IMG/VR virus record: IMGVR_UViG_3300017730_002734
Coordinates: 1 to 21,665 of that record
Length of the DNA stretch: 21,665 nucleotides
DNA from: a virus
Reading direction: 5' to 3' (one strand)
The notes under the pieces: model-generated
Databases searched by the model: none
What the model saw: the letters and a program-made list of their open reading frames with translations, nothing else
What the model was told of the DNA's origin: nothing
Shown here: in pieces, positions 345 through 20,811 of the stretch
Layout: every line of letters starts with the position of its first letter
How positions within the stretch are numbered: the first letter of the stretch is position 1
Program-made: the position numbers and the translations under genes

Positions 345-1190
345 ATGGCACATTGTGTAGTTAGTTTAAGTGGTGGAATGGATAGCAGCACCCTATTGTT
401 AAGAGCTATCGAAAAGTATGATTCTGTAACAGCTATATCCTTTGACTACGGTCAAAAACATAGAGTAGAGCTAGAAAGAGCTCAACAATTAGTTGATTAT
501 ATCAATGAAAATTGCCCAACAGATGAAAATTGTTTTAATGGATGTACAGTTAATTACCGTCAAATTAAATTAGATGGATTAGTAGATTTACTAGATTCAG
601 CTTTAGTTCAAGGAGGAGATGATGTACCAGAAGGACATTATGAACAAGATAATATGAAAGAAACAGTTGTTCCTAATAGAAACAAAATGTTTGCTTCAAT
701 TACTCAAGCAGTAGCATTATCTGTAGCAAATAGAACAGAAGATGTTTGTGATATTGCTTTAGGTATCCATGCTGGTGATCATGCAGTTTACCCTGATTGT
801 AGACAAGAATTTAGAGATGCAGATGATGCAGCTTTTAGAATTGGAAATTGGGATGCAGATAGAGTAGGTTACTTTACACCTTATTTAGATACTGATAAAT
901 TTGGTATCCTACAGGATGGAGAAAAGTTATGTGAAATTTTAGGTATTGATTTTGATGAAGTTTATTCTAGAACTAACACTTCTTATAAACCACTTAAAGT
1001 TTATAGTAGACCTGAAACTAATGCATACGAATGGTACAGTGATTATAAATCAGCTTCTAGTGTTGAACGTATTGAAGCATTTATTAAATTAGGAAGACCT
1101 GATCCTGTTGGTTATGCAGATGAAACTGGAGTAGTTGATTATGAAGTAGCAAAATCTCATGTCGAAAAAGTGCTTGCTGAATACGTATAG
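345..1190 (+). CDS. queC: QueC-like 7-cyano-7-deazaguanine synthase, zinc cysteines absent
   Basis: This is a 281-residue QueC-family enzyme. The family uses ATP and ammonia to turn 7-carboxy-7-deazaguanine (CDG) into preQ0, through an amide intermediate. Visible features are the N-terminal PP-loop SGGMDSS at residues 9-15, the FDYGQKHR segment near 33-40, VVPNRNKMF near 108-116, and HAGDHAVYPDCRQEF near 142-156. All are typical of QueC. The C-terminal zinc site is abnormal. Where the family has TxxCY and then CGxCxxC before an Arg, this protein has S213, D233, S236 and S239 before R242, so all four cysteines are missing. The surrounding VERIEAF and PDPVGY segments remain alignable, so the loss looks derived and not a misreading. 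It either still makes preQ0 without zinc, stops at the amide, or has another product. QueD, QueE and FolE lie downstream. Confidence 0.9.
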   Translation: MAHCVVSLSGGMDSSTLLLRAIEKYDSVTAISFDYGQKHRVELERAQQLVDYINENCPTDENCFNGCTVNYRQIKLDGLVDLLDSALVQGGDDVPEGHYEQDNMKETVVPNRNKMFASITQAVALSVANRTEDVCDIALGIHAGDHAVYPDCRQEFRDADDAAFRIGNWDADRVGYFTPYLDTDKFGILQDGEKLCEILGIDFDEVYSRTNTSYKPLKVYSRPETNAYEWYSDYKSASSVERIEAFIKLGRPDPVGYADETGVVDYEVAKSHVEKVLAEYV

Positions 1191-1194
1191 TAAC

Positions 1195-1204
1195 ATATAT
1201 GTAA
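1195..1204 (+). promoter_or_regulatory. Candidate phage promoter element, ATATATGTA class
   Basis: The short gap after queC contains ATATATGTA, 31 nt before the ATG at 1226. The same 9-mer occurs in the intergenic regions before the genes at 10964 and 17404. No transcription data are available, and the assignment rests only on recurrence and position. Confidence 0.3.
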
Positions 1205-1225
1205 TTATAATTTAACAATCTAGTA

Positions 1226-1366
1226 ATGAACAACGAACAACAAAACGGTAACACACAGTTAAATCAAGACAGAAATGCTTTCAATCAGAAAGTAAGTAGA
1301 TTAGCTATGTTAGGTCAGACCAAAAAAGTACAATGGTCTGATAGACGTAGATGGAGAAACGTCTAA
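1226..1366 (+). CDS. Small basic protein, unknown
   Basis: A 46-residue open frame begins at an ATG after an A/T-rich leader and ends with TAA just before the tRNA genes. It has a polar, Asn/Gln-rich N-terminal half (NNEQQNGNTQ) and a basic, Trp-containing end (WSDRRRWRNV), which could bind nucleic acid. It fills almost the whole gap between queC and the tRNAs, and its codon use resembles its neighbours (mostly A/T-ending). The family is not recognised. Small size makes this call less certain than for larger genes. Confidence 0.5.
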   Translation: MNNEQQNGNTQLNQDRNAFNQKVSRLAMLGQTKKVQWSDRRRWRNV

Positions 1367-1372
1367 AGGGTA

Positions 1373-1446
1373 GGGGAATTAGCTCAGCTGGCTAGAGCGC
1401 CTGCCTTGCACGCAGGAGGTCATCGGTTCGACTCCGATATTCTCCA
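1373..1446 (+). tRNA. tRNA-Ala (anticodon TGC)
   Basis: A complete cloverleaf is visible. The acceptor stem GGGGAAT pairs with ATTCTCC, with one G-T pair. The D stem is GCTC/GAGC, the anticodon stem CCTGC/GCAGG encloses the loop CTTGCAC, and the T stem ATCGG/CCGAT encloses TTCGACT. The discriminator base is A and CCA is not encoded. The anticodon TGC reads GCA codons, which suit this A/T-rich genome. It lies three bases upstream of the next tRNA, so both are probably processed from one transcript. Confidence 0.95.
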
Positions 1447-1449
1447 CAG

Positions 1450-1522
1450 TGTCCCTTGGTGTAATTGGCAACACGTCTGGTTTTGGTCCAGAAGAGTATA
1501 GGTTCGACCCCTGTAGGGACAA
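1450..1522 (+). tRNA. tRNA-Gln (anticodon TTG)
   Basis: The acceptor stem TGTCCCT pairs perfectly with AGGGACA. The anticodon stem TCTGG/CCAGA encloses TTTTGGT, giving anticodon TTG. The T stem ATAGG/CCTGT encloses TTCGACC and contains one T-G pair. The discriminator is A and no CCA is encoded. It reads CAA, the Gln codon used most in the genes around it. The isoacceptor supports translation of the phage's own A/T-rich codons, which is a common role for T4-like tRNAs. Confidence 0.94.
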
Positions 1523-1535
1523 CAAAAGTTATAAT

Positions 1536-1727
1536 ATGAAAAGTTTTTTAAAATTTCTTATAATTTGGATTAGTCAAAATTTAGCAATTCCTTTTTGGGT
1601 TGTAGGACATATCCATTTATCTATCCATAATTTTCACGATTTAGTAGAAATTGGGGCATCCATAGGAATGAATTTAATAGTAGCAATTGGATTTTTTATA
1701 GATTATAAAGAAAATGGAAGTAATTAG
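1536..1727 (+). CDS. Small membrane protein, unknown
   Basis: A 63-residue protein with two hydrophobic segments, roughly residues 3-25 and 40-55 (ASIGMNLIVAIGFFI), and a short charged tail. The frame stays open upstream to 1449, but that region is the tRNA-Gln gene, so the ATG at 1536 is the credible start. It lies 13 nt after the tRNA. His residues between the helices (HIHLSIHNFH) are notable, but no known family is recognised. A thioredoxin gene with a candidate promoter follows after a 50 nt gap. Confidence 0.6.
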   Translation: MKSFLKFLIIWISQNLAIPFWVVGHIHLSIHNFHDLVEIGASIGMNLIVAIGFFIDYKENGSN

Positions 1728-1742
1728 GAAATTAGAAATAAG

Positions 1743-1753
1743 TTTCGTATATT
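1743..1753 (+). promoter_or_regulatory. Candidate phage promoter element, CGTATATT class
   Basis: TTTCGTATATT lies in the gap before the thioredoxin gene, with CGTATATT starting 32 nt upstream of its ATG. The same 8-mer lies before the genes at 8733, 11459 and 20812. The TATATT part resembles a -10 hexamer with CG just upstream. The assignment is by recurrence only. Confidence 0.4.
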
Positions 1754-1777
1754 TAGTATAATAATAAATTAGAAAAC

Positions 1778-2026
1778 ATGGCAAAAATTATTTATTTTAC
1801 AGCTCCTTGGTGTGGACCTTGTAAAGCACTAGGTCCAGTAATGGACAAGTTAAGTTTAGAAATTCCTATTCATAAAGTAAATATTGACAATGATATGGAA
1901 AAAGCAGCTCATTATTCTGTTAGATCAGTCCCAACTTTAATTAAAGTAGATGATAGTAATAATGAGATAAAGAGAACAGTTGGTAATCAGTCAAGGGAAG
2001 ACATATTAAATTGGTATAATGGGTAA
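1778..2026 (+). CDS. trx: Thioredoxin-like protein
   Basis: An 82-residue minimal thioredoxin fold. The redox motif WCGPC is at residues 11-15 with catalytic C12 and C15, and the cis-proline segment SVPTL is near 51-54. It is shorter than cellular thioredoxins (about 105 residues) and closer in size to phage thioredoxin/glutaredoxin proteins such as T4 NrdC. Likely role: cytoplasmic dithiol donor for ribonucleotide reductase or other reductive enzymes. Its 3' end overlaps the queD start by 8 nt, so the two are probably translationally coupled. A candidate promoter sits directly upstream, which may make this the first gene of the queD-queE-folE operon. Confidence 0.88.
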   Translation: MAKIIYFTAPWCGPCKALGPVMDKLSLEIPIHKVNIDNDMEKAAHYSVRSVPTLIKVDDSNNEIKRTVGNQSREDILNWYNG

Positions 2027-2483
2027 ATTTCAATCAAGTAAAGTATTTGACGGTTTTAGTACAGTGTTTCGTCAATGGAAAGCAACAACAACACACTGTA
2101 GATTTGTACATGGTTATGGTATTTCCTTTAAAGTATATTTTGAAGGTGAATTAGATGAAAGGAATTGGGTTTGGGATTTTGGTGGAATGAAAAGAGCTAA
2201 AACTCTAATTGATGGTAAATCTCCTAAAGCATGGATGGATTATATGTTTGATCATACTATGATTATAGCAGAAGATGATCCTGAATTAAAAGCATTTCAA
2301 CAAATGGACAAAGCAGGTGTAGCACAAGTAAGAGTAATTCCAGCTACTGGCGCAGAGAAATTTGCTGAATATATTTATCACAAATTAAATGATTTTGTTA
2401 AAACTGAAACTGATAACAGAGTAAGAGTTATTAAAGTTAAGTTTGCAGAACACGGTAAAAACGCTGCTTATTACAGCGAATAA
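2019..2483 (+). CDS. queD: QueD-like 6-carboxy-tetrahydropterin synthase, variant metal site
   Basis: This 154-residue protein belongs to the PTPS/QueD family. QueD converts 7,8-dihydroneopterin triphosphate to 6-carboxy-5,6,7,8-tetrahydropterin, the second step toward 7-deazaguanine. Recognisable parts are THCRFVHGY (catalytic-type Cys, then His-Gly), WVWDFGG near the middle, FDHTMIIAEDDPE, the EKFAEYIY segment, and the C-terminal FAEHGKNAAYY. The classical zinc ligands of the family (a His after FxAA, and the HGH pair) are only partly kept: FSTVFRQW has Phe in place of the first His, and HGY replaces HGH. From memory, a bacterial QueD subgroup shares FRQW...CRFxHGY, so this is probably a known variant and not a decayed gene. 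QueE follows closely. Confidence 0.85.
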   Translation: MGKFQSSKVFDGFSTVFRQWKATTTHCRFVHGYGISFKVYFEGELDERNWVWDFGGMKRAKTLIDGKSPKAWMDYMFDHTMIIAEDDPELKAFQQMDKAGVAQVRVIPATGAEKFAEYIYHKLNDFVKTETDNRVRVIKVKFAEHGKNAAYYSE

Positions 2484-2525
2484 GTTATAATAGTGAATGA
2501 AAAACCACTTAAAAAAATTAACAAT

Positions 2526-3311
2526 ATGCACAAACAATTGAAACGTATTGAGGATTACGATAAAAACCTCCCTATTGTAGAAATTTACACTGCAGTACAA
2601 TCAGAAGGCTCAAGAGCAGGATACCCAACAGTAGTTATTAGAACAACAGGATGCACCCACAGATGCTATTTTGGCGAAGGTGGATGGTGTGATAGTTGGT
2701 ATACAAGTATCCACCCAGAAAAAGGTCATTTTAACTTTAAAGATATTATTGCCATGTATGAGAAAAACCCTCATATAAAGGAAATGATGTTGACTGGAGG
2801 TTCACCTACTATGCATGCTGCTTTAGTAAATGAATTAACACACTTCGCACATGAAAACGATATATTCATTACTATTGAAACTGAAGGATCACATTTCCTT
2901 CCTACTGATTATCCTATTAATCTCCTGTCAATTTCTCCTAAGTTTAGTAATAGCGTCCCCGTTGTTGGTACTCTTACTCCTCAAGGAAAAGTTACAGATG
3001 AAAAAATGGTAAAACAACATAATAAGTTAAGACTTAATTATGATGCAATTAAACAATCAATAGCTTATCACTCTGATTATCATATTAAACCAGTATGGGA
3101 TGGTAAAGATCAAGATGCATTAGCTGAAATTATGGATTGTTTAGCTCAATTAGAGGTTAAATCAGAAAAAGTTTGGTTTATGCCTGCTGGTGATTCAAGG
3201 GAAGCTTTATTTAAATCATATCCAGTATTATTTGATTGGGTAAGGGATAATGGTTATAGAATGACTTGGAGACCACATATTATTGCGTTTGAAGATAAGC
3301 GAGAAGTATAG
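2526..3311 (+). CDS. queE: QueE-like 7-carboxy-7-deazaguanine synthase (radical SAM)
   Basis: This radical SAM enzyme of the QueE family catalyses ring contraction of 6-carboxytetrahydropterin to 7-carboxy-7-deazaguanine. The start IYTAVQSEGSRAGYPTVVIR is typical of QueE. TGCTHRC...GGWCDSW carries the [4Fe-4S] cysteines, MMLTGGSPT is the GGE/P-like SAM segment, and IETEGS and SISPKFSNS match conserved downstream segments. The usual CxxxCxWCD spacing is enlarged to C-x3-C-x7-C by an inserted FGEGG-type loop. I chose the ATG at 2526 (261 residues) because A-rich sequence ending in AATATG precedes many starts here. A GTG at 2493 in the same frame would add 11 residues. The 3' end overlaps the small ORF at 3311 by one base. 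Confidence 0.88.
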   Translation: MHKQLKRIEDYDKNLPIVEIYTAVQSEGSRAGYPTVVIRTTGCTHRCYFGEGGWCDSWYTSIHPEKGHFNFKDIIAMYEKNPHIKEMMLTGGSPTMHAALVNELTHFAHENDIFITIETEGSHFLPTDYPINLLSISPKFSNSVPVVGTLTPQGKVTDEKMVKQHNKLRLNYDAIKQSIAYHSDYHIKPVWDGKDQDALAEIMDCLAQLEVKSEKVWFMPAGDSREALFKSYPVLFDWVRDNGYRMTWRPHIIAFEDKREV

Positions 3312-3445
3312 TGGATAAGCAAGAAGCCCTTCGTATATTAGATGATATAAAAGAAAATGTAAATGTCTGTTGTGCCATTACTATGGAACCAGACGAAGTA
3401 TTAGTATTAATAGATAAATTAGAAAGTTATATAAATGAGCAATAG
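3311..3445 (+). CDS. Small ORF between queE and folE, unknown
   Basis: A 44-residue open frame starts with GTG overlapping the last base of the queE stop and ends with a TAG inside the first codons of folE, so it fits exactly between the two genes. It contains CC near residue 20 and a helical EVLVLIDKLESYI tail. It weakly resembles the ORF at 5277-5453, which also has a CC pair followed by an EVEEL-type helix and sits in a similar slot. No family is recognised. An internal CGTATATT at 3332-3339 matches the promoter-like motif seen elsewhere. Confidence 0.5.
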   Translation: MDKQEALRILDDIKENVNVCCAITMEPDEVLVLIDKLESYINEQ

Positions 3446-4127
3446 AAGAAAAATTCACCAAGAATTAGAAGTTGTACAAGAAGGTTATGCAAATGGTGTA
3501 GCACCAGGATTTCCTTTTAGCGATGCAGAAAAAAAAGACATGATAGTAAAAGCAGCCCATAAATTTGGTTTGTTTTTAGATGAATTAAAATGTGATTGGA
3601 GACAAGATCCAAATTCAGCAGATACTCCTATGCGAGTAGCTAAAGCCTATGTTAATGATTTATGGGCAGGTAGATATACTGAAATGTCACCTATAACATC
3701 CTTTCCTTCGGATGGATATGATGGAATCATTATTGAAAGAAATATTCCTCTTACCTCAATGTGTTCACACCACCACCAAACAATTGGAGGTGTAGTTCAT
3801 ATTGGTTATATAGCAGGTGATGAAGGTAGAGTAATTGGTTTATCTAAATTAAATAGAATTGTTGAATTATTTGGTCGTAGAGGAGCAATACAAGAACAAT
3901 TAACATCAGCTATCCATAATGCAGTATGTAAAATTACTGAAGGTAATAAAGGTGTAATTGTTACTATAGTTGGAACACATAATTGTGTTAGCTGTAGAGG
4001 AGTTAAACATCAAGGAGCAGCAATGGTTACTACTAAAGCATCAGGTGTATTTAGAGAAAATGATAATTTAGCAAGAAAAGAATTTTTTGATAGTCTGAAG
4101 ATTAATAACGGAGGACATAATATATAA
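3435..4127 (+). CDS. folE: GTP cyclohydrolase I
   Basis: A 230-residue FolE. The enzyme opens GTP to 7,8-dihydroneopterin triphosphate, the entry step of folate and 7-deazaguanine synthesis. The C-terminal catalytic domain is clear: TSMCSHHH with zinc ligands C110 and His 113, VVHIGYI, the IGLSKLNRIVELFGRR segment near 134-149, QEQLT, and HNCVSCRG with the third zinc ligand C184. The residue spacing is normal for the family, and no key residue appears lost. Together with QueD, QueE and QueC it completes the pathway from GTP. It overlaps the preceding small ORF, and the phosphoribosyltransferase starts three bases after its stop. Confidence 0.95.
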   Translation: MSNRRKIHQELEVVQEGYANGVAPGFPFSDAEKKDMIVKAAHKFGLFLDELKCDWRQDPNSADTPMRVAKAYVNDLWAGRYTEMSPITSFPSDGYDGIIIERNIPLTSMCSHHHQTIGGVVHIGYIAGDEGRVIGLSKLNRIVELFGRRGAIQEQLTSAIHNAVCKITEGNKGVIVTIVGTHNCVSCRGVKHQGAAMVTTKASGVFRENDNLARKEFFDSLKINNGGHNI

Positions 4128-4130
4128 AAT

Positions 4131-4730
4131 ATGGCATTAGTAAACGAAGAAGAAAACAAAATGTACTTAAGTTGGGATGATGTAAATGGTCTTGTTAACA
4201 ACTTATGTGACAAAATTAGACACGACCAAATTAATATAGATTCAGTTCATGGTATTCCCAGAGGTGGATTAATTCCAGCAGTATTAATATCACATAAACT
4301 AGGTTTACCTTATGTAGGTGCAGTAGGAAAGAATACATTAGTAGTTGATGATATATGTGATTCTGGAGTTACATTAGAAAAAGGTCCTGGAGTTTATACA
4401 GCAGTATTACATTATAAACCACATACATCTTGTTTTCAACCTAATTTGTGGGCTGAATTACATGAAAGAGATGAATGGGTTATTTACCCTTGGGAAACTA
4501 AAGATTCACTTCCAATTCAAGATTATTTAGCTAATGATGCTAAAAAAGAAAGAGATGCATTAGAGGAATATTATAAAAGTGATGAATGGTTAGAATTTGC
4601 TGAAATGCAAGATGCTGCTATTTCGGATCTTGATAAAAGAGAAGGAATTCATCTTGTTGCAGGTATGTCAAATGACAAAGAAGGATCATTTATGAAATTC
4701 CAAAATAAAATAAAAAATAAAAAGTTATGA
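4131..4730 (+). CDS. Purine phosphoribosyltransferase, Gpt (xanthine-guanine) type
   Basis: A 199-residue type I phosphoribosyltransferase. HGIPRGGLIPA (residues 40-50) is the N-terminal PRPP/pyrophosphate loop. TLVVDDICDSGVT (69-81) is the PRPP-binding motif with D73 and D74. DEWVIYPWE (114-122) matches the xanthine-guanine enzyme hallmark near the purine site. These enzymes attach a free purine base to PRPP. Residues after about 130 form a charged, mostly helical tail that is not part of the core and may be phage-specific. The gene lies directly between folE and a MazG-like gene in a 7-deazaguanine operon, so a 7-deazaguanine base is a reasonable but unproven substrate. Ordinary guanine or xanthine salvage is the alternative. 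Confidence 0.82.
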   Translation: MALVNEEENKMYLSWDDVNGLVNNLCDKIRHDQINIDSVHGIPRGGLIPAVLISHKLGLPYVGAVGKNTLVVDDICDSGVTLEKGPGVYTAVLHYKPHTSCFQPNLWAELHERDEWVIYPWETKDSLPIQDYLANDAKKERDALEEYYKSDEWLEFAEMQDAAISDLDKREGIHLVAGMSNDKEGSFMKFQNKIKNKKL

Positions 4731-5302
4731 GCAAGCAGCTAAAATTAAAATTTAAAGATGAAGAGCTACCTGTATGGGTTAATGAAGTACCCTTTGTTTC
4801 TGAAGTAGAAACATTTAATGCCACATTTGGCAAACCAAATAATTATGAACCAACTATACCAGAAAAAAAAGAATGGAAATTTGTTTACGACTTTATACTT
4901 GAAGAACTCGAAGAATATAGAGAGGCTTGCGAACGAGGAGACATTGTGGAAGTTTTGGACGCTTTGTGCGACATTACTTATGTTTCCCTTGGGAACGGTG
5001 CTATGTTACATGGTCTTAAGGATAAGGTATGGCCAGCATATCTCGAGGTACAAGGAAGTAATATGTCAAAAGCTTGTAAAACTGAAGAAGAGGCCATACT
5101 CACCGTCAGCCAAAGAAGTAAGGAACAAGGTGAGGCCTGCCATTTTGAGAAACTTGAGGAAGGACGGTACATTGTCTATAGATCAAGGGATAAGAAAGTA
5201 ATGAAATCAATTAATTATTATAGACCAGATTTGAGTAAGTTTTTTACTCAGGATGAAATAGAAAAATGTTTACCCAATGCCGACCCCGAAACAATTATCT
5301 AA
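4727..5302 (+). CDS. MazG-like nucleoside triphosphate pyrophosphohydrolase
   Basis: A 191-residue protein with an all-alpha NTP pyrophosphatase (MazG/PRA-PH) core. The metal-binding motifs are EELEE around residues 59-63 and ExxD at E75/D78 with a further D82 (EVLDALCDITY). The downstream EVQGSNMSKACKTEEEA segment is typical of phage members. The C-terminal third (YRSRDKKVMKSINYYRPDL) may be a lid or a second small domain. Members hydrolyse dNTPs or NTPs to monophosphates and pyrophosphate. In phages with modified bases, relatives deplete the canonical nucleotide. The start ATG overlaps the stop of the phosphoribosyltransferase. The stretch from about 4905 to 5190 uses many G/C-ending codons unlike its neighbours, suggesting recombination. 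Confidence 0.8.
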   Translation: MSKQLKLKFKDEELPVWVNEVPFVSEVETFNATFGKPNNYEPTIPEKKEWKFVYDFILEELEEYREACERGDIVEVLDALCDITYVSLGNGAMLHGLKDKVWPAYLEVQGSNMSKACKTEEEAILTVSQRSKEQGEACHFEKLEEGRYIVYRSRDKKVMKSINYYRPDLSKFFTQDEIEKCLPNADPETII

Positions 5303-5453
5303 AGAACAATGGGAACAGGTTGATAAATCACTAGAATTTATTTATCTTAATACCGACAAGTGTTGTCAAGATTTATGTGAGGGGCAGTTATGTAAATTTG
5401 AAGTTGAAGAATTAATGGAAATATTATCACAGATAAGACCAAATGAGTTATAA
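5277..5453 (+). CDS. Small Cys-rich ORF, unknown
   Basis: A 58-residue frame starts at an ATG inside the end of the MazG-like gene (26 nt overlap) and ends inside the first codons of the DNA polymerase gene (11 nt overlap). It contains four cysteines (CCQDLC...LC) that could bind a metal, followed by a helical KFEVEELMEILSQI segment. It resembles the ORF at 3311-3445 weakly in layout. It fills the only gap between the two large genes, which argues that it is real. The family is not recognised. Confidence 0.55.
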   Translation: MPTPKQLSKEQWEQVDKSLEFIYLNTDKCCQDLCEGQLCKFEVEELMEILSQIRPNEL

Positions 5454-7143
5454 AAAATGTTTTGCAAAAAGTTTAGGGAAAAACAAATTCAAAATCCACC
5501 TTTGGGATGAAGCAGGTTACGATGAAATAGAATGGTGGAACCCAGCTTATGTTGAAGATCCAGATGGTGAATTTACTGGAATTAATGGAGAAAAACTAAG
5601 CAAAACATATAAGTGGGATAAAAATACTTCAAATATACATTTTCATGATATGAAACCATATCAAAAGTTCCTTATCGAAAGATATGGTACTGATGATACT
5701 CCTTCTACTGGTCATAGAGAAGTATTTTTTGATATTGAGTGTGAAATCGGGGGCGCTTTGACCGAAGATTATATTGAAAGTGCCCCGATGCCTATTACCT
5801 CTATTGCTTGGTGGGATAAAACACCTAATACTTGGCACATTTTAATTCTTGATAAGAAAAACCAACTTAAACATACTAAAGCAAAAAACAAAGAAATTAT
5901 ACCTTGTAGAACAGAAAATGAATTATTAGGTAAATTTATTGAGCATATCAGAGATATCGATCCAGATATTTTAATTGGTTATAATTCAGATTATTTTGAT
6001 ATTCCTTATTTGTATTATAGAATGTGTAATACTATTGGAGAGGATTTTGCTAAACATTTATCACCTATTGGAGTAGTAAATTGTAAAAAGGGTAATCAAT
6101 ATTGGTATAAGCGTAATCAATTTGTAGAAATTGTAGGAGTTGAATCACTTGATTATATTCGTTTACATAAAAAATATAGCTGGAAAGATGAACCAAGCTG
6201 GAAATTAGATGCTATTGGAGAAAAGTATGTTGGTATGGGTAAGGTTGAATATGAAGGTAATTTAGATCAATTATTTGAAACTGATATCCATAAATTTATT
6301 CAATATAACTTTGTTGATGTTGAAATACTTCAAAAATTAGATGAAAAATTACAATATATTGCTTTAACTAAAAACCTATCACATAAAGGTAAGCACAATT
6401 ATAGTGAAGTATATGCTAATACAGTATCACAAGATGGAGCGATTTCAGCTTACTTATTAAGTAAAAATATTATACCACCAAGAAGAGATGAACATCCAAT
6501 TCATAAAAAGAATTATGCTGGTGGTTACCTTTTTTGCCCCAAAGCAGGACTATACAAGTATATGTTTGATGAAGATTTAACATCACTGTATCCATCTATA
6601 ATAATGTCAATTAACATAGGTAAAGAAACACTCAAGGGTCGCATCATAGATTCAGATGACCGTAATAATAGATTGGCACTTAACGATTTAAAAGAACGTG
6701 ATCCTGAAGAAGAATTATTAGTAGAAAACAAACACCGAAGACAAGCTTATGTTCCTGTTAAGAAACTAATTCAAATGATTGAAGAAAATAATTTAGCTAT
6801 TTCAGCTAATGGTGTATTTTTTGAAACAGATAGAGAATCAGTATTATCTACTATTCTTAAGAAATGGTTTGAAGAGCGTGTTATTTATAAAGGACGTATG
6901 AAAAAAGCTTATAAAGCTGGAGATACAGAAGCAGGTGAATATAATCATTTAATGCAATACACAATGAAAATTTTGCTTAATAGTTTATATGGAGCAACAG
7001 CATTAGGTAGTTTTAGATATGGTAACGTAATATTATCAGAAGCTATTACATTATCAGGTCAAAGAATTATTCAAGAAAGTGCTTTATGTGCCAATAGGCA
7101 TATGAATAAAGTAATTAAAAACAAAATCAAACTACAAATATGA
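5443..7143 (+). CDS. 43A: DNA polymerase family B, N-terminal part (gp43A: exonuclease, palm motif A, fingers motif B)
   Basis: A 566-residue fragment of a T4 gp43-like replicative polymerase. The 3'-5' exonuclease has all three motifs: FFDIECE with D97/E99, IGYNSDYFDIPYL with D183/D186, and YNFVDVE with Y288/D292. Polymerase motif A is EDLTSLYPSII (D378), and motif B is KILLNSLYG (K509-G517). The protein then stops after a helix corresponding to the segment just before motif C, so it lacks one catalytic Asp pair and the thumb and cannot polymerise alone. The missing part is encoded at 7773-8708, after two unrelated genes. The TGA overlaps the next ATG. No intein-like splicing residues are seen at the break. 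It is expected to assemble with the C-terminal part into one enzyme at the replisome. Confidence 0.93.
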   Translation: MSYKKCFAKSLGKNKFKIHLWDEAGYDEIEWWNPAYVEDPDGEFTGINGEKLSKTYKWDKNTSNIHFHDMKPYQKFLIERYGTDDTPSTGHREVFFDIECEIGGALTEDYIESAPMPITSIAWWDKTPNTWHILILDKKNQLKHTKAKNKEIIPCRTENELLGKFIEHIRDIDPDILIGYNSDYFDIPYLYYRMCNTIGEDFAKHLSPIGVVNCKKGNQYWYKRNQFVEIVGVESLDYIRLHKKYSWKDEPSWKLDAIGEKYVGMGKVEYEGNLDQLFETDIHKFIQYNFVDVEILQKLDEKLQYIALTKNLSHKGKHNYSEVYANTVSQDGAISAYLLSKNIIPPRRDEHPIHKKNYAGGYLFCPKAGLYKYMFDEDLTSLYPSIIMSINIGKETLKGRIIDSDDRNNRLALNDLKERDPEEELLVENKHRRQAYVPVKKLIQMIEENNLAISANGVFFETDRESVLSTILKKWFEERVIYKGRMKKAYKAGDTEAGEYNHLMQYTMKILLNSLYGATALGSFRYGNVILSEAITLSGQRIIQESALCANRHMNKVIKNKIKLQI

Positions 7144-7406
7144 CATTAAAAAAACAATCTATAAGAAACAACATGACAGTTTATGCAGACAATGAACTAA
7201 TTACAAAGGATGAGCTAATTAAAGTAAGTGAAACCTGGTCTGAAAATCAAGAAAAAATGTTCCGAAAATGTTTAAAACAAGGAGTATTTAGATTTAAAAT
7301 AAAAGGTGTTACTTATAAGATTGATTTAAAAGAAAGAGAAGATATTAACTCAAAAGGAGAAAAACCACAAACAGTACCCAAATTACCTGGGGAACGCACA
7401 TTTTAA
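7140..7406 (+). CDS. Unknown 88-residue protein inserted between the polymerase parts
   Basis: The start ATG overlaps the polymerase stop as ATGA, so translation is probably coupled. The protein has a helical, charged first half (ELIKVSETWSENQEKMFRKCLKQG), then a short beta-like region (FRFKIKGVTYKID) and a Pro-rich tail. It has no homing-endonuclease motif (no LAGLIDADG, GIY-YIG or HNH). The family is not recognised. The ENQEK...LKQG...IKGVTYKI pattern suggests a small compact fold, possibly nucleic-acid related, but this is a guess. Confidence 0.65.
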   Translation: MTLKKQSIRNNMTVYADNELITKDELIKVSETWSENQEKMFRKCLKQGVFRFKIKGVTYKIDLKEREDINSKGEKPQTVPKLPGERTF

Positions 7407-7407
7407 A

Positions 7408-7776
7408 ATGAAAATAGAAGTATCAAATGGTGAATTACTAGATAGAATTTCAATTTTAGAAATTAAAAAATTGAATATGGTGGATCCTGAGAATTTAGCT
7501 AATGTAGAATTAGAATTTGCAAGTCTAAATCCAGGTGTTGTAGATTTATTTACTAAAAATGGTAAAGAAATTAAGGTATTATTTTTGGAGTTGTCAAAAG
7601 TAAATCGTATGTTATGGGATCTGGAAAACAGAGTTAGAGATAAAAGTATTACAGATAAAGAATTTAGGAAAGCATCATTAATGATATTTGAATATAATGA
7701 AGTTAGAAATCAATTAAAAAATGATATTAATATTATTTCAGGTTCAAATTTTAAAGATATAAAAGAATATAGATGA
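7408..7776 (+). CDS. DUF6165-like protein inserted between the polymerase parts
   Basis: A 122-residue, mostly helical protein. EVSNGELLDRISILEIKKLNM at the N-terminus, LELSKVNRMLWDLENRVRD in the middle, FEYNEVRNQLKNDIN, and the end INIISGSNFKDIKEYR match my memory of the DUF6165 family. That family is often found beside glycosyltransferase or surface-polysaccharide genes in bacteria and has no established activity. It starts one base after the previous stop, and its TGA overlaps the ATG of the second polymerase part. Its place inside a DNA polymerase locus is unexpected. It may relate to the glycosyltransferase genes near the end of this window. Confidence 0.7.
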   Translation: MKIEVSNGELLDRISILEIKKLNMVDPENLANVELEFASLNPGVVDLFTKNGKEIKVLFLELSKVNRMLWDLENRVRDKSITDKEFRKASLMIFEYNEVRNQLKNDINIISGSNFKDIKEYR

Positions 7777-8708
7777 AACATATAGAAGATACTCCTTGGT
7801 GGATTTGTGATAAGGATGATGTTAATTATTGTGCTTATGTAGACACTGATTCAAATTATTTTAATGCTGAACCTATACTAAAATATTTGTATCCTGATTT
7901 TGAATCTTTTGATGATAAGAAAAAAGATGATATTTTAGAAAAAGTAGCACTTAAATATCAAGATATTATAAATGATGATTATGATAGATTAGCTCGTGAA
8001 GCATTTAATGTAACTGAACATAGGTTAGAAATGAAAACAGAATGTGTTATTCGTTCAGCCTATTTTAGAGCTACTAGACGTTATGCTCAATGGATTACTA
8101 AGCAAGAAGGTATTGAAAAAGAATCTTTAGATATTAAAGGTTTAGAATTTATGAAAGCAAATTTCCCACCTATATTAGGAGATTTCTTCAATGATATTTT
8201 ACAACAAGTATTAAAGGGTGAACAGAAAGATAGTGTATTAGAACAAATTAAAGTATTTAAAAAACAGATATTAGGAGGTGATATTCCACTAACAAAACTA
8301 GGCAACCCAACATCAGTAAAAAAGTTAGATAAGTACTCTGGTACTAAAGCAAGAGCAGGTGAAATGTTTACTGAAATATTAAAAGGAGCTCCAGCACCAG
8401 TTAGAGCAGCAATTCGATATAATGATTTATTAAGATTATGGAGTTTAGATAGAAAACATAACTTAATTACTCAAGCCGATAAAGTAAAATGGATTTATTT
8501 AAAAGATAACCCATATAAAATAGAAGCATTAGCATTCTTTGATTATGACATGCCATCAAAAATTCAAGATTTCCTTGATATTTATGCTGACAGACAAAAA
8601 GTATTTGAATCAATTTTATTAAACAAATTAGAAGGATTTTTTAACGATTTAGAATGGAGTTTAGATTTAAACCCTCATATAAATGCATTATCTTCCTTTG
8701 AAATTTAA
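7773..8708 (+). CDS. 43B: DNA polymerase family B, C-terminal part (gp43B: motif C, thumb)
   Basis: This 311-residue protein carries the remainder of the split polymerase. Motif C, YVDTDS, lies at residues 22-27 with catalytic D24 and D26. TECVIRSAYFRATRRYAQWI follows and corresponds to the KKRYA-type segment of family B enzymes, then LDIKGLEFMKANFPP and a long helical thumb region. The last residues (INALSSFEI) could play the part of the clamp-binding tail found at the end of T4 gp43, but the match is loose. Its ATG overlaps the stop of the DUF6165-like gene. Neither half duplicates the other, so together they make one complete polymerase. Confidence 0.9.
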   Translation: MKHIEDTPWWICDKDDVNYCAYVDTDSNYFNAEPILKYLYPDFESFDDKKKDDILEKVALKYQDIINDDYDRLAREAFNVTEHRLEMKTECVIRSAYFRATRRYAQWITKQEGIEKESLDIKGLEFMKANFPPILGDFFNDILQQVLKGEQKDSVLEQIKVFKKQILGGDIPLTKLGNPTSVKKLDKYSGTKARAGEMFTEILKGAPAPVRAAIRYNDLLRLWSLDRKHNLITQADKVKWIYLKDNPYKIEALAFFDYDMPSKIQDFLDIYADRQKVFESILLNKLEGFFNDLEWSLDLNPHINALSSFEI

Positions 8709-8714
8709 AAAAAC

Positions 8715-8725
8715 TTACGTATATT
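8715..8725 (+). promoter_or_regulatory. Candidate phage promoter element, CGTATATT class
   Basis: TTACGTATATT lies directly after the polymerase stop, with CGTATATT beginning only 15 nt before the ATG at 8733. If TATATT acts as a -10 element, the transcript would start at or next to the ATG and be nearly leaderless. Confidence 0.4.
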
Positions 8726-8732
8726 GAATAAT

Positions 8733-9626
8733 ATGGAATTTAAGAAGAGAGATTACTGGAAAACAACAAAATGGCCTACTATGGAATTTACAACTTCTAT
8801 TTCGCCTAAGGGTTGTGTTGTAAATTGTGCCTTTTGCCCTCAAAGAACTTTAGAGAAAATTTATCATGCTCACAAGGGTCAACCTAAAACCTTATCACTA
8901 GCTAGATTTATTCAAATTGTAGATAAATTACCTAAAGAAGTAAGAGTTACATTTTCTGGGTTTACTGAACCTTGGTTAAATAAAGAATGTACTAAAATGA
9001 TGCAGTATGCTAATTACAAAGGACACCCTTTATCTGCATTTTCAACAGGAGTAGGAATGACATTAGATGATGTTGAAGCAGTTAAAGATATACCTTGGAC
9101 TAAAGGACCAAATGGTGGATTTTGTTTACATATCCCAGATGCTGAACGAATAGCTGAACATCCCTTAAGTGATAGGTTATATAAAGTATTTGAAAAATTT
9201 AAAGAATATGAAAATGATATTCAAGCATTTTATGTAATGAGTATGGGTGAACCTCATGACTGTGTAAAAGAATTATGGCCTAATCCTGTTATACCTAATT
9301 TTTGGGATAGAGCAGGTAATTTAGTAGGTGAAGCAACTATTAAACCAGCATTAGATAAAATTAAAGATAGAGTTAACCATGCACCTAAAAAAGGACCTAG
9401 TACTTGTGGTTGTATTGAACACCTTTATCATAATGTTGTTTTGCCTAACGGAGATGTTTCATTATGTTGTATGGATTATAGTTTAGAAAAAATATTAGGT
9501 AATTTATTCGTTGACGAATATGATGATATAATGCCTGCACCTTTATCTACATTTGATATGTGTGGTAGATGTGAAAATGGTGTTAGTCCAAGTGATAAAA
9601 TTAGAAATAAAAATATTATTATATGA
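8733..9626 (+). CDS. Radical SAM protein with SPASM-like C-terminal cysteines
   Basis: A 297-residue radical SAM protein. CVVNCAFC gives the CxxxCxxC [4Fe-4S] site (C28, C32, C35). VTFSGFTEPWLN takes the place of the GGE segment. The C-terminal part has CGC at 225-227, VLPNGDVSLCCMDY near 236-248, ILGNLF, and CGRC at 277-280, a pattern like SPASM domains that bind extra clusters. SPASM enzymes often modify peptides, but some act on other substrates. The substrate here is unknown. I start at the ATG at 8733 (preceded by AATA); an in-frame TTG at 8724 overlaps the promoter-like motif and is less likely. The gene sits between polymerase and clamp, and overlaps the clamp start by four bases. Confidence 0.85.
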   Translation: MEFKKRDYWKTTKWPTMEFTTSISPKGCVVNCAFCPQRTLEKIYHAHKGQPKTLSLARFIQIVDKLPKEVRVTFSGFTEPWLNKECTKMMQYANYKGHPLSAFSTGVGMTLDDVEAVKDIPWTKGPNGGFCLHIPDAERIAEHPLSDRLYKVFEKFKEYENDIQAFYVMSMGEPHDCVKELWPNPVIPNFWDRAGNLVGEATIKPALDKIKDRVNHAPKKGPSTCGCIEHLYHNVVLPNGDVSLCCMDYSLEKILGNLFVDEYDDIMPAPLSTFDMCGRCENGVSPSDKIRNKNIII

Positions 9627-10345
9627 TAAGTAAAAATGTTTTACAAAGTGTTATAGCAAAGTATTATTTAAATGGATTAAATAATCAGGTTAAATGGAGA
9701 ATTAAAGATAAAGCACTTACAATATATGCTGGTGAAAAAGGTAGAGTATGTAAGGTACATCTAAATGATTTTGATATCGAAGATAGTGAATTAGGTATAT
9801 TTGATACTGATAAATTATCAAAACTGTTATCTATTACTAGTGGTGAATTATCTTTATCATTAGAAAAAATTAAATCAGTGTATACTAAAATGCATATCGC
9901 AGATTTAAATTTTGATTTAACATATTCATTAGCTGATATTTTAATTTTAGGCAAAACAACATGGTATGAAGATCCTGAAACATGGGAAATTGATATTGAC
10001 TTACAAATGGAAGATGTTGACCATTTAATTAAAGCAAAAAACGCATTATCTGATGTCAATAATATGTTAATTACAACAACACAAGATTTTGACGATAATA
10101 ATATATGTGAATTTGTATTTGGTGATAACACCGGATTTTCAAATAAAATAACATATCAATTAAATGGTGATATTAAAGAAGATAATTTATCCATCCCATT
10201 TGATTCAGATATTTTCAAATCAATACTTAACTCAAATAAAGATATGAGTAAAGGTAATTTAAAATTATCAAATAAAGGAATGATAAAATTAACGTTTAAC
10301 TCAGACGACATAGAAAGCGTCTATTATATAGCAAGAAATGAATAA
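9623..10345 (+). CDS. 45: DNA polymerase sliding clamp, gp45-like
   Basis: A 240-residue protein similar in size to T4 gp45 (228). The clamp forms a trimeric ring on DNA and tethers the polymerase. Alternating beta and helix segments are visible. They start with NVLQSVIAKYYLNGLN, then KALTIYAGEKGRV, the FDIEDSELGIFDTDKLSKLLSI segment typical of gp45 domain 1, ISIDLQ-like central strands, a second domain with DVDHLIKAKNAL, and a C-terminal YYIARNE. Motifs are weak in this family, so the call also relies on length and on neighbouring polymerase and clamp loader genes. It overlaps the genes on both sides. Confidence 0.78.
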   Translation: MISKNVLQSVIAKYYLNGLNNQVKWRIKDKALTIYAGEKGRVCKVHLNDFDIEDSELGIFDTDKLSKLLSITSGELSLSLEKIKSVYTKMHIADLNFDLTYSLADILILGKTTWYEDPETWEIDIDLQMEDVDHLIKAKNALSDVNNMLITTTQDFDDNNICEFVFGDNTGFSNKITYQLNGDIKEDNLSIPFDSDIFKSILNSNKDMSKGNLKLSNKGMIKLTFNSDDIESVYYIARNE

Positions 10346-10963: not shown

Positions 10964-11386
10964 ATGAGTACATTACAATTATTGGAAAGGCATTTAAGTC
11001 CTTTCGACATTCTTTTTAGAAACCACTTTAAATCTGATAGCACATTTCAACCAGCTTCAGATACAAAACAACCACACCCACTTAATATTTTCTTTGACGA
11101 TAAAGGGCTTTATTTTGAAGTTGCCTGTACAGGACTAACTAAAAAAGACGTTGTCCTTGATATCGAAGGAGATATATTAAAAATCAGTTATAAGAAACCA
11201 GAAGATGAAAAATTCCATGAAGGAACTATTCATAATGGTTTGTCTAAAAAATCATTTGATTTAAGATATAAAATTGCCCCTAAATTTGATTTAGGACAAA
11301 CTGATGCAGTTTTAACAAATGGTCTATTAGAAATTTTTATACCATTAGCTGAAGAAGCTAAACCAAAATCAATTAAAATTAAATAA
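10964..11386 (+). CDS. hsp20: Small heat shock protein, Hsp20 / alpha-crystallin family
   Basis: A 140-residue protein with a short N-terminal arm (LLERHLSPFDILFRNHF) and an alpha-crystallin domain from about residue 40. PLNIFFDDKGLYFEVACTGLTKKDVVLDIEGDILKISYKK has the strand pattern of the family. The AxxxGxL-type motif is AVLTNGLLEIFIPL. The C-terminal IKIK matches the IxI anchor that binds neighbouring subunits. Hsp20 proteins hold unfolding proteins without ATP. Hsp20 genes are known in T4-like marine phages. The chaperonin genes follow after one small gene, so the phage carries a holdase and a foldase. An A/T-stem terminator follows it. Confidence 0.92.
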   Translation: MSTLQLLERHLSPFDILFRNHFKSDSTFQPASDTKQPHPLNIFFDDKGLYFEVACTGLTKKDVVLDIEGDILKISYKKPEDEKFHEGTIHNGLSKKSFDLRYKIAPKFDLGQTDAVLTNGLLEIFIPLAEEAKPKSIKIK

Positions 11387-11396
11387 AAGTTATTGC

Positions 11397-11425
11397 AAAA
11401 AAACGTGTCCTAGCAGTGTTTTTTT
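11397..11425. terminator. Rho-independent-like terminator after hsp20, probably bidirectional
   Basis: AAAAAAAC at 11397-11404 pairs with GTTTTTTT at 11418-11425, extended by two G-T pairs, around a loop of nine bases. The run of seven T at the 3' end and seven A at the 5' end would allow termination in both directions. The stem is weak in GC, so efficiency is uncertain. A promoter-like CGTATATT follows immediately. Confidence 0.5.
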
Positions 11426-11433
11426 CGTATATT
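11424..11433 (+). promoter_or_regulatory. Candidate phage promoter element, CGTATATT class
   Basis: CGTATATT starts at 11426, directly behind the T-run of the terminator and 33 nt before the ATG at 11459. Terminator followed by promoter would separate hsp20 from the groES-groEL transcript. This is the best-placed of the repeats of this motif. Confidence 0.45.
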
Positions 11434-11458
11434 CCGGTCTAAACAAAATAATAGTTAT

Positions 11459-11770
11459 ATGGCAAGAAAACCAAATTCCTTAACACTTATTGAAGATCCA
11501 AGTATGGAACCTTTTTTCATCACTAAAGATGAACACTGCTACACAGTGAATAAAAGAATTACCTCAAATGCTGATCATTTTAGATCAACAGGTAAGAGTA
11601 AAACTTATACTAAAGCACTAACATTCCATGCTGATTTTGGGACTGCATTAGAAAGAATTACTAAAGAGCAGTTACATACAAAAGAACACTTTAAAACATT
11701 AAGTGACTTTTTAGATTATTATACTAAAATTGAAACTAACATTAAAAATTATTTAAATGAAAAAGCTTGA
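11459..11770 (+). CDS. Unknown 103-residue protein upstream of groES
   Basis: A small, mainly polar protein with a possible N-terminal beta region (SLTLIEDPSMEPFFITKDEHCYTVNKR) and a helical second half (ALTFHADFGTALERITKEQLHTKEHFKTLSDFLDYYTKIETNIKNYL). Its stop overlaps the groES start by 14 nt, so it is likely co-expressed with the chaperonin. I do not recognise the family. The location suggests a link to the chaperonin operon, but the sequence gives no functional motif. Confidence 0.65.
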   Translation: MARKPNSLTLIEDPSMEPFFITKDEHCYTVNKRITSNADHFRSTGKSKTYTKALTFHADFGTALERITKEQLHTKEHFKTLSDFLDYYTKIETNIKNYLNEKA

Positions 11771-12116
11771 AGCATTATTCGATGCGGTTATCGTTAAACC
11801 AGTAGAAAACGAAGAAACACTATATGGGAATATCATTGTTCCTGATATGGGTAAAGAAAAAAATGAATTTGGGGAAGTAGTTGCTGTTGGATTTGGTAGA
11901 TATACCTTAAATGGCAATTTAATCCCAATGCAATTAAAAGTAGGAGATTTGGTAGTATTACCAACTCAAGGTTTTACAAAATTACCATTTGATGGTGAAG
12001 AATATTATGTTGGACCTGAAAATCAAGTACTAGCTAAAGTTCAACAAACAGTTGAAGGTATTTTAGCTGAAACTGAAGTAACAGATGAAGATAAATCAAA
12101 CTTAACTGAATTATAA
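11757..12116 (+). CDS. groES: GroES-like co-chaperonin
   Basis: A 119-residue co-chaperonin. ALFDAVIVKPVENEETLYGNIIVPD contains the GroES barrel start and the mobile loop with its hydrophobic IIV contact. GEVVAVGFGRY and VGDLVVLPTQGFTKLPFDGEEYYVGPENQVLAKV complete the core. It caps the GroEL ring during folding. It resembles bacterial GroES more than T4 gp31. About 20 extra residues form an acidic tail after the core (bacterial GroES is about 97 residues), which may be phage-specific. GroEL begins three bases after its stop, the usual groES-groEL order, so the two are one unit. Confidence 0.93.
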   Translation: MKKLEALFDAVIVKPVENEETLYGNIIVPDMGKEKNEFGEVVAVGFGRYTLNGNLIPMQLKVGDLVVLPTQGFTKLPFDGEEYYVGPENQVLAKVQQTVEGILAETEVTDEDKSNLTEL

Positions 12117-13769
<1,653 letters not shown>

Positions 13770-17605: not shown

Positions 17606-19057
17606 ATGAATAAAAGTTTTAAACACCTTCCTCCTGATAAGAGGAAAAAAATCGTTTTAGTATGTGATGACATTAGAGTACACTCTGGTGTTGCAACAGT
17701 TGCAAAAGAAATAGTATCACATACCTGTCACCATTTTAACTGGGTAAATATAGGTGGAGCTATTAACCATCCAGATAAAGGTAAGGTATTAGATTTAGGA
17801 CAAGCAACAGGAAAGGAAATTGGGATTGATGATGCTCAAGTTAAAATATACTGTGTAAATGGTTATGGTAAAGAAGATGAAATTAGACAGGTTTTAGAAA
17901 TTGAAAAACCAGATGCCCTATTGTTATTTACAGACCCAAGATATTTTACTCACATTTTTAATTCTGAAGATGATATTAGAAAAAAATGTCCTATAGCTTA
18001 TATTAATATTTGGGATGACTATCCAGCACCAAGATATAATCAAGCATATTACGAATCATGTGATTTATTAATGGGTATTTCAAAACAAACTAAAAATATT
18101 AATGAGCTAGTATTAGCTGATTGTGATAATAGTAAAAGGGTGTTTAAATATGTACCTCATGGTTTAAATCACAATCATTATTTCCCTATTACTAAAGATC
18201 ATGATGACTATAAGGATATGAAAATCTTTAGAAATTCTGTTTTTAAAGGTGATGATGTTGATTATACATTATTCTTTAATTCAAGAAATATTAGACGTAA
18301 ACAAATTCCAGATACAATGTTAGCGTTTAGACATTTTTTAGATCAATTACCAAAAGAAAAAGCGGATAAATGTAGAATGATACTACACACAGAAGTAGTA
18401 ACAGATCATGGTACTGATTTAGAAGCAGTAAGAGAATATCTATTTGATGAAAAATATCCTAAAGCATGTATATTTTCAATTAATAAGTTAGATAGAAAAC
18501 ATTTAAATTACTTGTATAATATAGCAGATGCTCAAGTATTATTAACATCAAATGAAGGTTGGGGATTAACCCTTACAGAAGCTATGTTAGCGGGTACACC
18601 AATTATAGCTAATGTAACAGGTGGAATGCAAGATCAAATGAGATTTGTTGATGATAAAGGTAAATGGTTTGATCCATCACCTGAAGTACCATCCAACCAC
18701 AGAGGCACATATAAAGAACATGGTGAATGGGCATTTCCAGTTTACCCAACAAGTAGATCAATTCAAGGTTCACCTCCAACACCATACATTTTTGATGATA
18801 GATGTAAGTGGGAAGATGCAGCTGAAAGATATATGGAAGTATATAATTTAAGTAAAGAAGAACGTAAAGCTAAAGGATTAAAAGGTAGAGAATGGGCTAT
18901 AAGTGATGAAGCTGGATTTACAGCTGAAAGACAAGCCGAAAGGGTATTAGAAGCTTTTACTGAACTATTTAAAGTTTGGGAACCAAGAGAAGAATACGAA
19001 ATTGTAAATGCAATTGAGTACAAAGGTAAAGTGTTAAATCATAAAATTATTTATTAA
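17606..19057 (+). CDS. Glycosyltransferase, GT4-like (GT-B fold)
   Basis: A 483-residue glycosyltransferase. IVLVCDDIRVHSGVATVAKEIV near the N-terminus carries the GT-B acceptor-side glycine loop. The C-terminal nucleotide-sugar domain contains LNYLYNIADAQVLLTSNEGWGLTLTEAMLAGTPIIA, the EGxGxxxxE pattern of family GT4. GT4 enzymes usually retain the anomeric configuration and use UDP- or GDP-sugars. Acceptor unknown: surface glycan, phage virion proteins or modified DNA are all possible. The 3' end overlaps the next glycosyltransferase start by one base. T4 glucosylates its DNA, but those enzymes differ from GT4. Confidence 0.88.
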   Translation: MNKSFKHLPPDKRKKIVLVCDDIRVHSGVATVAKEIVSHTCHHFNWVNIGGAINHPDKGKVLDLGQATGKEIGIDDAQVKIYCVNGYGKEDEIRQVLEIEKPDALLLFTDPRYFTHIFNSEDDIRKKCPIAYINIWDDYPAPRYNQAYYESCDLLMGISKQTKNINELVLADCDNSKRVFKYVPHGLNHNHYFPITKDHDDYKDMKIFRNSVFKGDDVDYTLFFNSRNIRRKQIPDTMLAFRHFLDQLPKEKADKCRMILHTEVVTDHGTDLEAVREYLFDEKYPKACIFSINKLDRKHLNYLYNIADAQVLLTSNEGWGLTLTEAMLAGTPIIANVTGGMQDQMRFVDDKGKWFDPSPEVPSNHRGTYKEHGEWAFPVYPTSRSIQGSPPTPYIFDDRCKWEDAAERYMEVYNLSKEERKAKGLKGREWAISDEAGFTAERQAERVLEAFTELFKVWEPREEYEIVNAIEYKGKVLNHKIIY

Positions 19058-20352
19058 TGAAAAAACCAAGTTTTTATATAAGTTGCCCATTTGACACATA
19101 CAGTGGTTATGGGGCTAGAGCAAGAGATATTGTCAAGTCAATTATCGATTTAGATAAATATGATGTTAAATTATTAAGTCAAAGATGGGGTAATACACCA
19201 TTTGGCTTTACTACAGATCATAAAGAATGGGAATATCTAAATGAACTTAGAGTGCAAGGTGTAGCTCAAGGACAAAAACCAGATATTTGGATGCAGATTA
19301 CTATTCCAAGTGAATTCCAACCAGTAGGAAAATATAATATTGGATGTACAGCTGGAATTGAAAGTACAGGTTGTGATCATACCTGGATTGAAGGTTTAAA
19401 CCGAATGGATATGAATTTCGTTTCATCAAAACACAGTAAAAAAGTATTTACTGAAGTTGGATTTGAACAAAGAGACCAACAAGGTAGAACTACAGGTCAT
19501 GTTTTAAAATTAACTAAACCAATTGAAGTAGTATTTGAAGGGTATAATGAAGATGTTTATAAGTATTTACCTAAAGTTGACTTTGATTTAAGCGCTATTA
19601 AAGAATCGTTTTGTTATCTATTTGTAGGACATTGGATGCAAGGTGATATGGGTCATGATAGAAAAAATGTAGGATTAATGATTGATTATTTCTTCCAAAC
19701 ATTTAAAAATAAAAAATCAAGACCAGCTTTAATATTAAAAGCATCTACTGGTAGAAATAGTTATATGAGTAGAGAAGCTATACTTAATAAAATATCTAAG
19801 ATTAAAAGACAATATGTAAATGATGATTTACCTAATGTTTATGTATTAAATGGTGGTCTTACTGATCAACAAATGAATGAGTTATATAATCACCCTAAAG
19901 TAAAAGCTATGGTTAGTTTTACTAAAGGTGAAGGATTTGGACGACCATTACAAGAATTTTGTTTATCAAAGAAACCACTAATAGTATCAGGATGGTCTGG
20001 TCATATGGATTTTGTTGAACCTGGATTAGCAATTGTATTAGGAGGTCAATTAGAAAAAGTACATGCCTCAGCCGCAAACCAATGGTTGAAAAAAGAATAT
20101 GATTGGTTCCAAGTTAATCCTAAACAAGCTAAAGATGCATTAAAAAATGTATTTACTAACTATAAAAAATATGTTGGACCAGCTAAACAACAAGGACATT
20201 ATATTAAAACAGAATTTAGTTTTACTAAAATGAAAGAATTAGTTGATAAGCTATTAGAAGATAACTTACCTGAATTTGCTAATGAATTAAAATTAAATTT
20301 ACCTAGTATGGATACTCCATCACTAACAACTCCAACATTAAATAAAGTATAA
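19057..20352 (+). CDS. Glycosyltransferase, GT-B fold (GT4-like)
   Basis: A 431-residue second glycosyltransferase. SCPFDTYSGYGARARDIV is the N-terminal glycine-rich loop, and DIWMQITIPSEF plus NIGCTAGIEST follow. The C-terminal domain has FVGHW near residue 189, MVSFTKGEGFGRPLQEFCLSKKPLIVSGWSGHMDFV with the EGFGRPLQE pattern, and a charged tail rich in Ser/Thr/Pro (SMDTPSLTTPTL). It overlaps its neighbours by single bases (taATGa type junctions). It is probably part of the same pathway as the gene at 17606. Substrate cannot be told from sequence. Confidence 0.82.
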   Translation: MKKPSFYISCPFDTYSGYGARARDIVKSIIDLDKYDVKLLSQRWGNTPFGFTTDHKEWEYLNELRVQGVAQGQKPDIWMQITIPSEFQPVGKYNIGCTAGIESTGCDHTWIEGLNRMDMNFVSSKHSKKVFTEVGFEQRDQQGRTTGHVLKLTKPIEVVFEGYNEDVYKYLPKVDFDLSAIKESFCYLFVGHWMQGDMGHDRKNVGLMIDYFFQTFKNKKSRPALILKASTGRNSYMSREAILNKISKIKRQYVNDDLPNVYVLNGGLTDQQMNELYNHPKVKAMVSFTKGEGFGRPLQEFCLSKKPLIVSGWSGHMDFVEPGLAIVLGGQLEKVHASAANQWLKKEYDWFQVNPKQAKDALKNVFTNYKKYVGPAKQQGHYIKTEFSFTKMKELVDKLLEDNLPEFANELKLNLPSMDTPSLTTPTLNKV

Positions 20353-20810: not shown

Positions 20811-20811
20811 T

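Follow-up and report, generated by a model that had tools for sequence, protein, structure and literature searches.

The replicative DNA polymerase encoded in the viral DNA studied here would be an obligate two-subunit enzyme, assembled in trans from separately translated halves, and the junction between the two genes appears to be a preferred slot for the exchange of translationally coupled cargo genes, a reading to which we give a probability of roughly 0.85. The window, by which is meant the whole stretch of DNA that was analysed, is the 21,665-base virus record IMGVR_UViG_3300017730_002734. An earlier sequence-only reading had delimited four open reading frames in it, two polymerase parts with two genes between them, and their coordinates and junctions were found to match exactly. 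The features of the locus are as follows.

5443..7143, + strand: N part, family B DNA polymerase, 566 aa, with the exonuclease domain, palm motif A, fingers and motif B (PHROG 262, 2e-114; Pfam PF00136 and PF03104; RB69/T4 gp43, 5.8e-49)
6574..6600, + strand: motif A, DLTSLYPSI (sequence reading and T4 gp43 alignment)
6979..6993, + strand: motif B, NSLYG (T4 gp43 alignment)
7117..7140, + strand: extra C-terminal tail of the N part, KNKIKLQI, without counterpart in fused relatives (alignment with T4, phiN3, Mel-JY01 and L284; N-tail variants)
7140..7143, + strand: ATGA overlap (4 nt) of the N-part stop and the o88 start (sequence)
7140..7406, + strand: o88, a small gene of unknown function with an 88-aa product, the commonest gap occupant, without a family or fold match
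7408..7776, + strand: DUF6165/DUF4254-like cargo gene, 122 aa, after a 1-nt gap (Pfam PF14063, 1.4e-7; PF19662, 2.8e-6)
7773..7776, + strand: ATGA overlap of the cargo stop and the C-part start (sequence)
7773..8708, + strand: C part, 311 aa, with motif C, the remaining palm and the thumb (PHROG 262, 6e-45; its model matches RB69 gp43, E 3.4e-8)
7773..7823, + strand: extra N-terminal head of the C part, MKHIEDTPWWICDKDDV, kept across the split clade and missing from fused relatives (alignments); it looks disordered in a model of the C part alone (pLDDT <50 at residues 1-16)
7842..7853, + strand: motif C, DTDS, with the catalytic aspartates (sequence)

The two parts together make up one polymerase of the gp43 type. 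The N part covers positions 75-569 of the PHROG 262 (DNA polymerase) profile and the C part positions 565-844 of 856, the E-values above being those of the best stretch against the whole protein, so that a single polymerase has been cut in two with almost no loss or duplication. Pfam recognizes DNA_pol_B and DNA_pol_B_exo1 in the N part, whose end aligns with residue 606 of T4 gp43, past motif B (NSLYG, 561) and short of motif C (DTDS, 618); the C part carries motif C (YVDTDS) at its residues 22-27. The exonuclease motifs and the polymerase motifs A, B and C of a T4-type family B enzyme are thus all present, distributed over the halves as the first reading had proposed, and the junction falls, again as proposed, in a variable connecting segment. 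The two reading frames jointly cover one gp43, as in a split of the 43A/43B type; what departs from a T4-type polymerase is the single chain, which is usual rather than strictly defining, phage 25 being an exception. The C part of the window has no match to Pfam PF00136, and in most relatives tested that match is weak or below the cut-off, so that the polymerase of such phages may look truncated to an annotator.

A scan of viral contigs with the C part returned 273 related stretches. Fetched loci with the split number 178, many of them overlapping, and collapse to about 126 distinct junctions once identical ones are merged (179 loci were counted as split, one of which, L283, is an outgroup artefact with a broken frame and a C part that starts at GNDY). 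In every fetched locus of the clade where both halves are readable they are separate, and L332 and L333, contigs assigned to flavobacterial MAGs, show it too, which makes marine Flavobacteriia a candidate host group. Such recurrence in hundreds of relatives is far beyond chance. That the window, a metagenomic fragment known from sequence alone, might hold an assembly error or a decaying pseudogene has a practically negligible probability: assembly error, one of the refuters named at the outset, is ruled out by the recurrence of the junction in about 126 distinct sequences, drawn from many metagenomes and from MAG assemblies, and decay is opposed by intact catalytic motifs and strong purifying selection. 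Motif B is present in 145 of 145 relatives with a full N part and motif C in all 179 C parts counted, the L283 artefact row included; motif A reads DLTSLYPSI in 135 of the 145, and three of the ten exceptions were aligned, all with a conservative LYPC for LYPS. The C part starts with ATG or GTG in 178 of 179 cases, and dN/dS is 0.06-0.08 for the N part and 0.06-0.11 for the C part. The C parts of L088 (1539-2516) and its relatives L089-L102 are longer, at 325 aa, with an extra stretch of about 14 residues in L088 (PLSKKKEGKAQRQL) ahead of the GAPA motif.

A second intact gene 43 elsewhere in the genome, another refuter that had been named, was not found in contigs of up to 166 kb, none of them rated complete. 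One N part is present in each of 12 contigs of 64-166 kb, and in six contigs of 110-166 kb, none rated complete, the N and C halves are the only DNA_pol_B matches; no DNA_pol_A match rises above the cut-off in those six, with one sub-threshold PolA-like match in a 156-kb contig. The two-part polymerase, with its cargo slot, is real, old and functional-looking, and assembly of the halves in trans is very likely. The replicative enzyme would then be two polypeptides in obligate non-covalent assembly, with an active site completed across the interface between a chain bearing the exonuclease and motifs A and B and a chain bearing motif C and the thumb, and the conserved new ends, the tail of the N part and the PWW head of the C part, may help the two to come together.

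Comparison with related phages for fused genes, which the sequence-only reading had recommended, placed the fused relatives in a group of their own. These comprise Microcystis phage Mel-JY01 and many IMG/VR contigs, and 63-64 residues lie between their motifs B and C; in the split clade this stretch is longer by about 20 residues, those of the N tail and the conserved C head (MKHxExTPWWICD). T4 and RB69 gp43 and fused relatives such as Mel-JY01 have the same domains and motifs and clamp loader genes nearby, but are single polypeptides without the roughly 20 extra junction residues, where the polymerase here is two chains. In two trees of the joined halves (FastTree and a quick IQ-TREE run), the split and fused groups are parted by a 100% branch, and as all split relatives fall in one clade, one split event suffices; most simply, the common ancestor of these phages would have acquired the split a single time. 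The branch between the groups is long, which implies that the sample lacks relatives that could narrow down the time of the event. The split clade is large and made up of marine phages not in culture; the searched phage collection holds no isolate of it, and the nearest phage there, Mel-JY01, is fused and 33% identical. Mel-JY01 and phiN3 had been considered candidate splits from the shapes of their matches, and both are annotated as fused.

The genes between the halves behave as cargo, as had been supposed, and the contents of the gap change between relatives. About 26 distinct junctions are insert-free: their halves share 4 nt (ATGA), except in L170, where the overlap is 1 nt. Most of the remaining gaps, of which there are about 101, contain 1-6 genes by a mechanical count of open reading frames. 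The usual filling is o88 plus a changing cargo, o88 being present in 92 of the roughly 101 distinct non-empty gaps. The DUF6165-like gene, whose 122-aa product in the window scores 27.6 bits against DUF6165, barely above the cut-off of 27, occupies 51 and varies between relatives, a mannose-6-phosphate-isomerase-type cupin 27 and a cytidylyltransferase 15. Rarer residents are a DegT aminotransferase, GNAT, FkbM and C-methyltransferases, a formyl transferase, a polysaccharide synthesis epimerase, a Trp-halogenase-like gene, Smr and DUF2452. By these matches the cargo appears to be mostly of a sugar-modification type.

The junction is a place where genes are inserted more often than at neighbouring boundaries: a spacing above 300 nt is found in 67% of polymerase gaps, against 28% between the C part and the clamp-like gene and 15% upstream of the N part, which makes the polymerase gap a preferred, though not an exclusive, insertion point. 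After the N-part stop the next start lies most often at -4 or -1 nt (-4 in 65 distinct junctions), and the same two spacings prevail before the C-part start (74 distinct gaps); this spacing at both ends of the gap points to translational coupling. An alternative, that frameshifting at the ATGA overlap, or else splicing, yields a single chain from both halves, is very improbable. In insert-free lineages a -1 shift at the overlap would indeed reach the C frame, but inspection by eye turned up no conserved slippery heptamer there, a stretch of 0.2-4 kb parts the halves in most relatives, and neither an intron in the ten sequences scanned nor an intein domain in either window half was detected. 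With the halves read as separate chains, the junction would have become a tolerated insertion point within the replication operon, where genes slot in with ATGA or TAATG-type junctions and translation stays coupled.

The sequence-only reading had gone further and suggested that the cargo replaced an earlier mobile element. That the gene was split by a homing endonuclease or another mobile element since lost, with the cargo left behind, we regard as unlikely. Insertion of an endonuclease is the known way in which genes of T4-like phages become split (PMC2988022), the junction is flanked by about 20 extra residues, and o88 is weakly favoured as an ancestral occupant of the gap; against this, insert-free splits occur in several lineages, and no homing endonuclease was matched in the Pfam-scanned clusters of the 236 open reading frames from the roughly 101 non-empty gaps, several small clusters having no Pfam match and a few being unscanned. 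All that occurs is a small Smr-domain gene in 6 gaps. An Rfam search of the window and nine related loci found no group I or II intron RNA between the coding parts, which tells against the spliced message named as a refuter, and Pfam found no intein or Hint domain in either window half. The statement that the gap has neither endonuclease nor intein is accordingly borne out within the scanned clusters and the window halves, and the suggestion of a replaced element finds no support in those same clusters or in the approximately 26 insert-free junctions. These junctions also imply that the insert does not maintain the split.

As the most frequent resident, o88 might be more than cargo. A tripartite enzyme, with o88 as a dedicated third subunit to bridge or chaperone the halves, would account for the presence of the gene in nearly all non-empty gaps and for its frequent translational coupling to a polymerase half, and its position in the gap is also the more parsimonious ancestral state (costs 5 vs 7 and 6 vs 8, equal weights). 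Several lineages nevertheless lack it in the gap, among them some insert-free ones whose copy lies several kb from the gap, near queC, and has a shorter C terminus, and none was detected in contigs of 95-113 kb with a split polymerase. With a dN/dS of 0.13-0.42 the gene also changes more quickly than the polymerase, and its replacement is independent, as in L064 and L085, where o88 is 53% identical and the N part 95%. This divergence unlike that of the polymerase, together with the lineages that lack or have relocated it, suggests that o88 is a frequent gap resident and probably not an essential subunit; an obligatory third subunit is weakened by those lineages, and we hold the tripartite enzyme to be distinctly improbable. 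The 88-aa protein has no significant family or fold match in Pfam, PHROG and fold searches, and its model shows a beta-alpha-alpha-beta-beta fold at moderate confidence (pLDDT 73.5). In L325, a shortened o88 homologue (1498-1722) lies directly upstream of queC, and the polymerase halves overlap without an insert.

An exchangeable slot at the junction agrees with the gap states: at least 16 changes of state fall on an 83-row tree and 11 on a 39-row tree, with the insert-free state recurring in separate places, including L207 within an insert-bearing group. The polymerase halves themselves, to judge by their identities, reassort between relatives: L051 and L053 have identical C parts and N ends that are 87.8% identical, while L053 and L058 show the reverse (N 93.3%, C 80.9%). 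From these patterns we infer that co-infecting relatives may swap gap contents, with the conserved polymerase DNA on either side serving for homologous recombination. Somewhat short of an even chance, and offered tentatively, is the idea that the split has been kept because it makes a protected, constantly exchanged cargo slot in an essential gene, along with reassortment of the halves, permanent across the clade and without a homing endonuclease.

Split polymerases of other phages are already known, and several of those so far described are tied to an invading intein, intron or endonuclease. The closest in kind are those of Aeromonas phages 25 and 44RR (PMC2988022; DQ529280), in which, as here, a T4-type family B polymerase is encoded by two reading frames, 43A and 43B, of one operon; the two products of phage 25 are reported to co-purify with polymerase activity (PMC2988022). 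The gap of phage 25 holds a GIY-YIG endonuclease, in agreement with the earlier mention of a homing endonuclease in such a phage, and that of 44RR an untranslated spacer, neither of which is found at the junctions here, and an intron is annotated in the Aeromonas 43B where none was found here. By alignment 43A of phage 25 ends near T4 residue 508, before motif B, whereas the cut in the window lies about 100 residues downstream, at 606 and after motif B, so that the two are different events. In the jumbo Pseudomonas phage MIJ3, PolB lies in two reading frames, and a split intein and an HNH endonuclease are reported (PMC6892783); neither was found in the polymerase here. In the polymerase of the metagenomic jumbo phage LR756508 (L163) the cut falls, as here, between motifs B and C and other genes lie in the gap, but both halves have intein-like Hint/splicing domains, and none are found in the window halves; the split of this polymerase (1928-9852) appears to have arisen independently at the same position. 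The OM43 phages MEP401 and MEP402, which are Zobellviridae-related, are described as having a split DNA polymerase with a small unknown ORF (PMC10580990).

The searched literature describes other split polymerases and no clade of the present type, and its cut site, its persistence across a clade with or without an insert and its cargo slot were not found described there. A split kept in both states makes the question of why the gene is split separable from that of what fills the gap. The relatives also form a natural series (fused, split and overlapping, split with o88, split with cargo) in which the tolerance of an active site to being built from two chains could be tested, and the same series bears on how phages load cargo beside essential genes without a dedicated mobile element.

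Elsewhere in the window, positions 345-4127 hold QueC, PTPS/QueD-like, radical SAM (QueE-like) and GTP cyclohydrolase I genes by Pfam, likely a 7-deazaguanine pathway, and two tandem tRNA genes lie on the + strand at 1373-1446 and 1450-1522 (Rfam). Between the C part and a clamp-like gene, so called because of where it lies and because it resembles the gene that follows the C part in LR756508, with no Pfam match, is a radical SAM/SPASM gene (8724-9626) that occurs in only some relatives. Chaperonins are uncommon in phage genomes, and genes for Hsp20, Cpn10 (GroES) and Cpn60 (GroEL) are present at 10964-13769. Three glycosyltransferase genes, one of them below the Pfam cut-off, lie at 17606-21435, in line with the sugar-type cargo of the gap.
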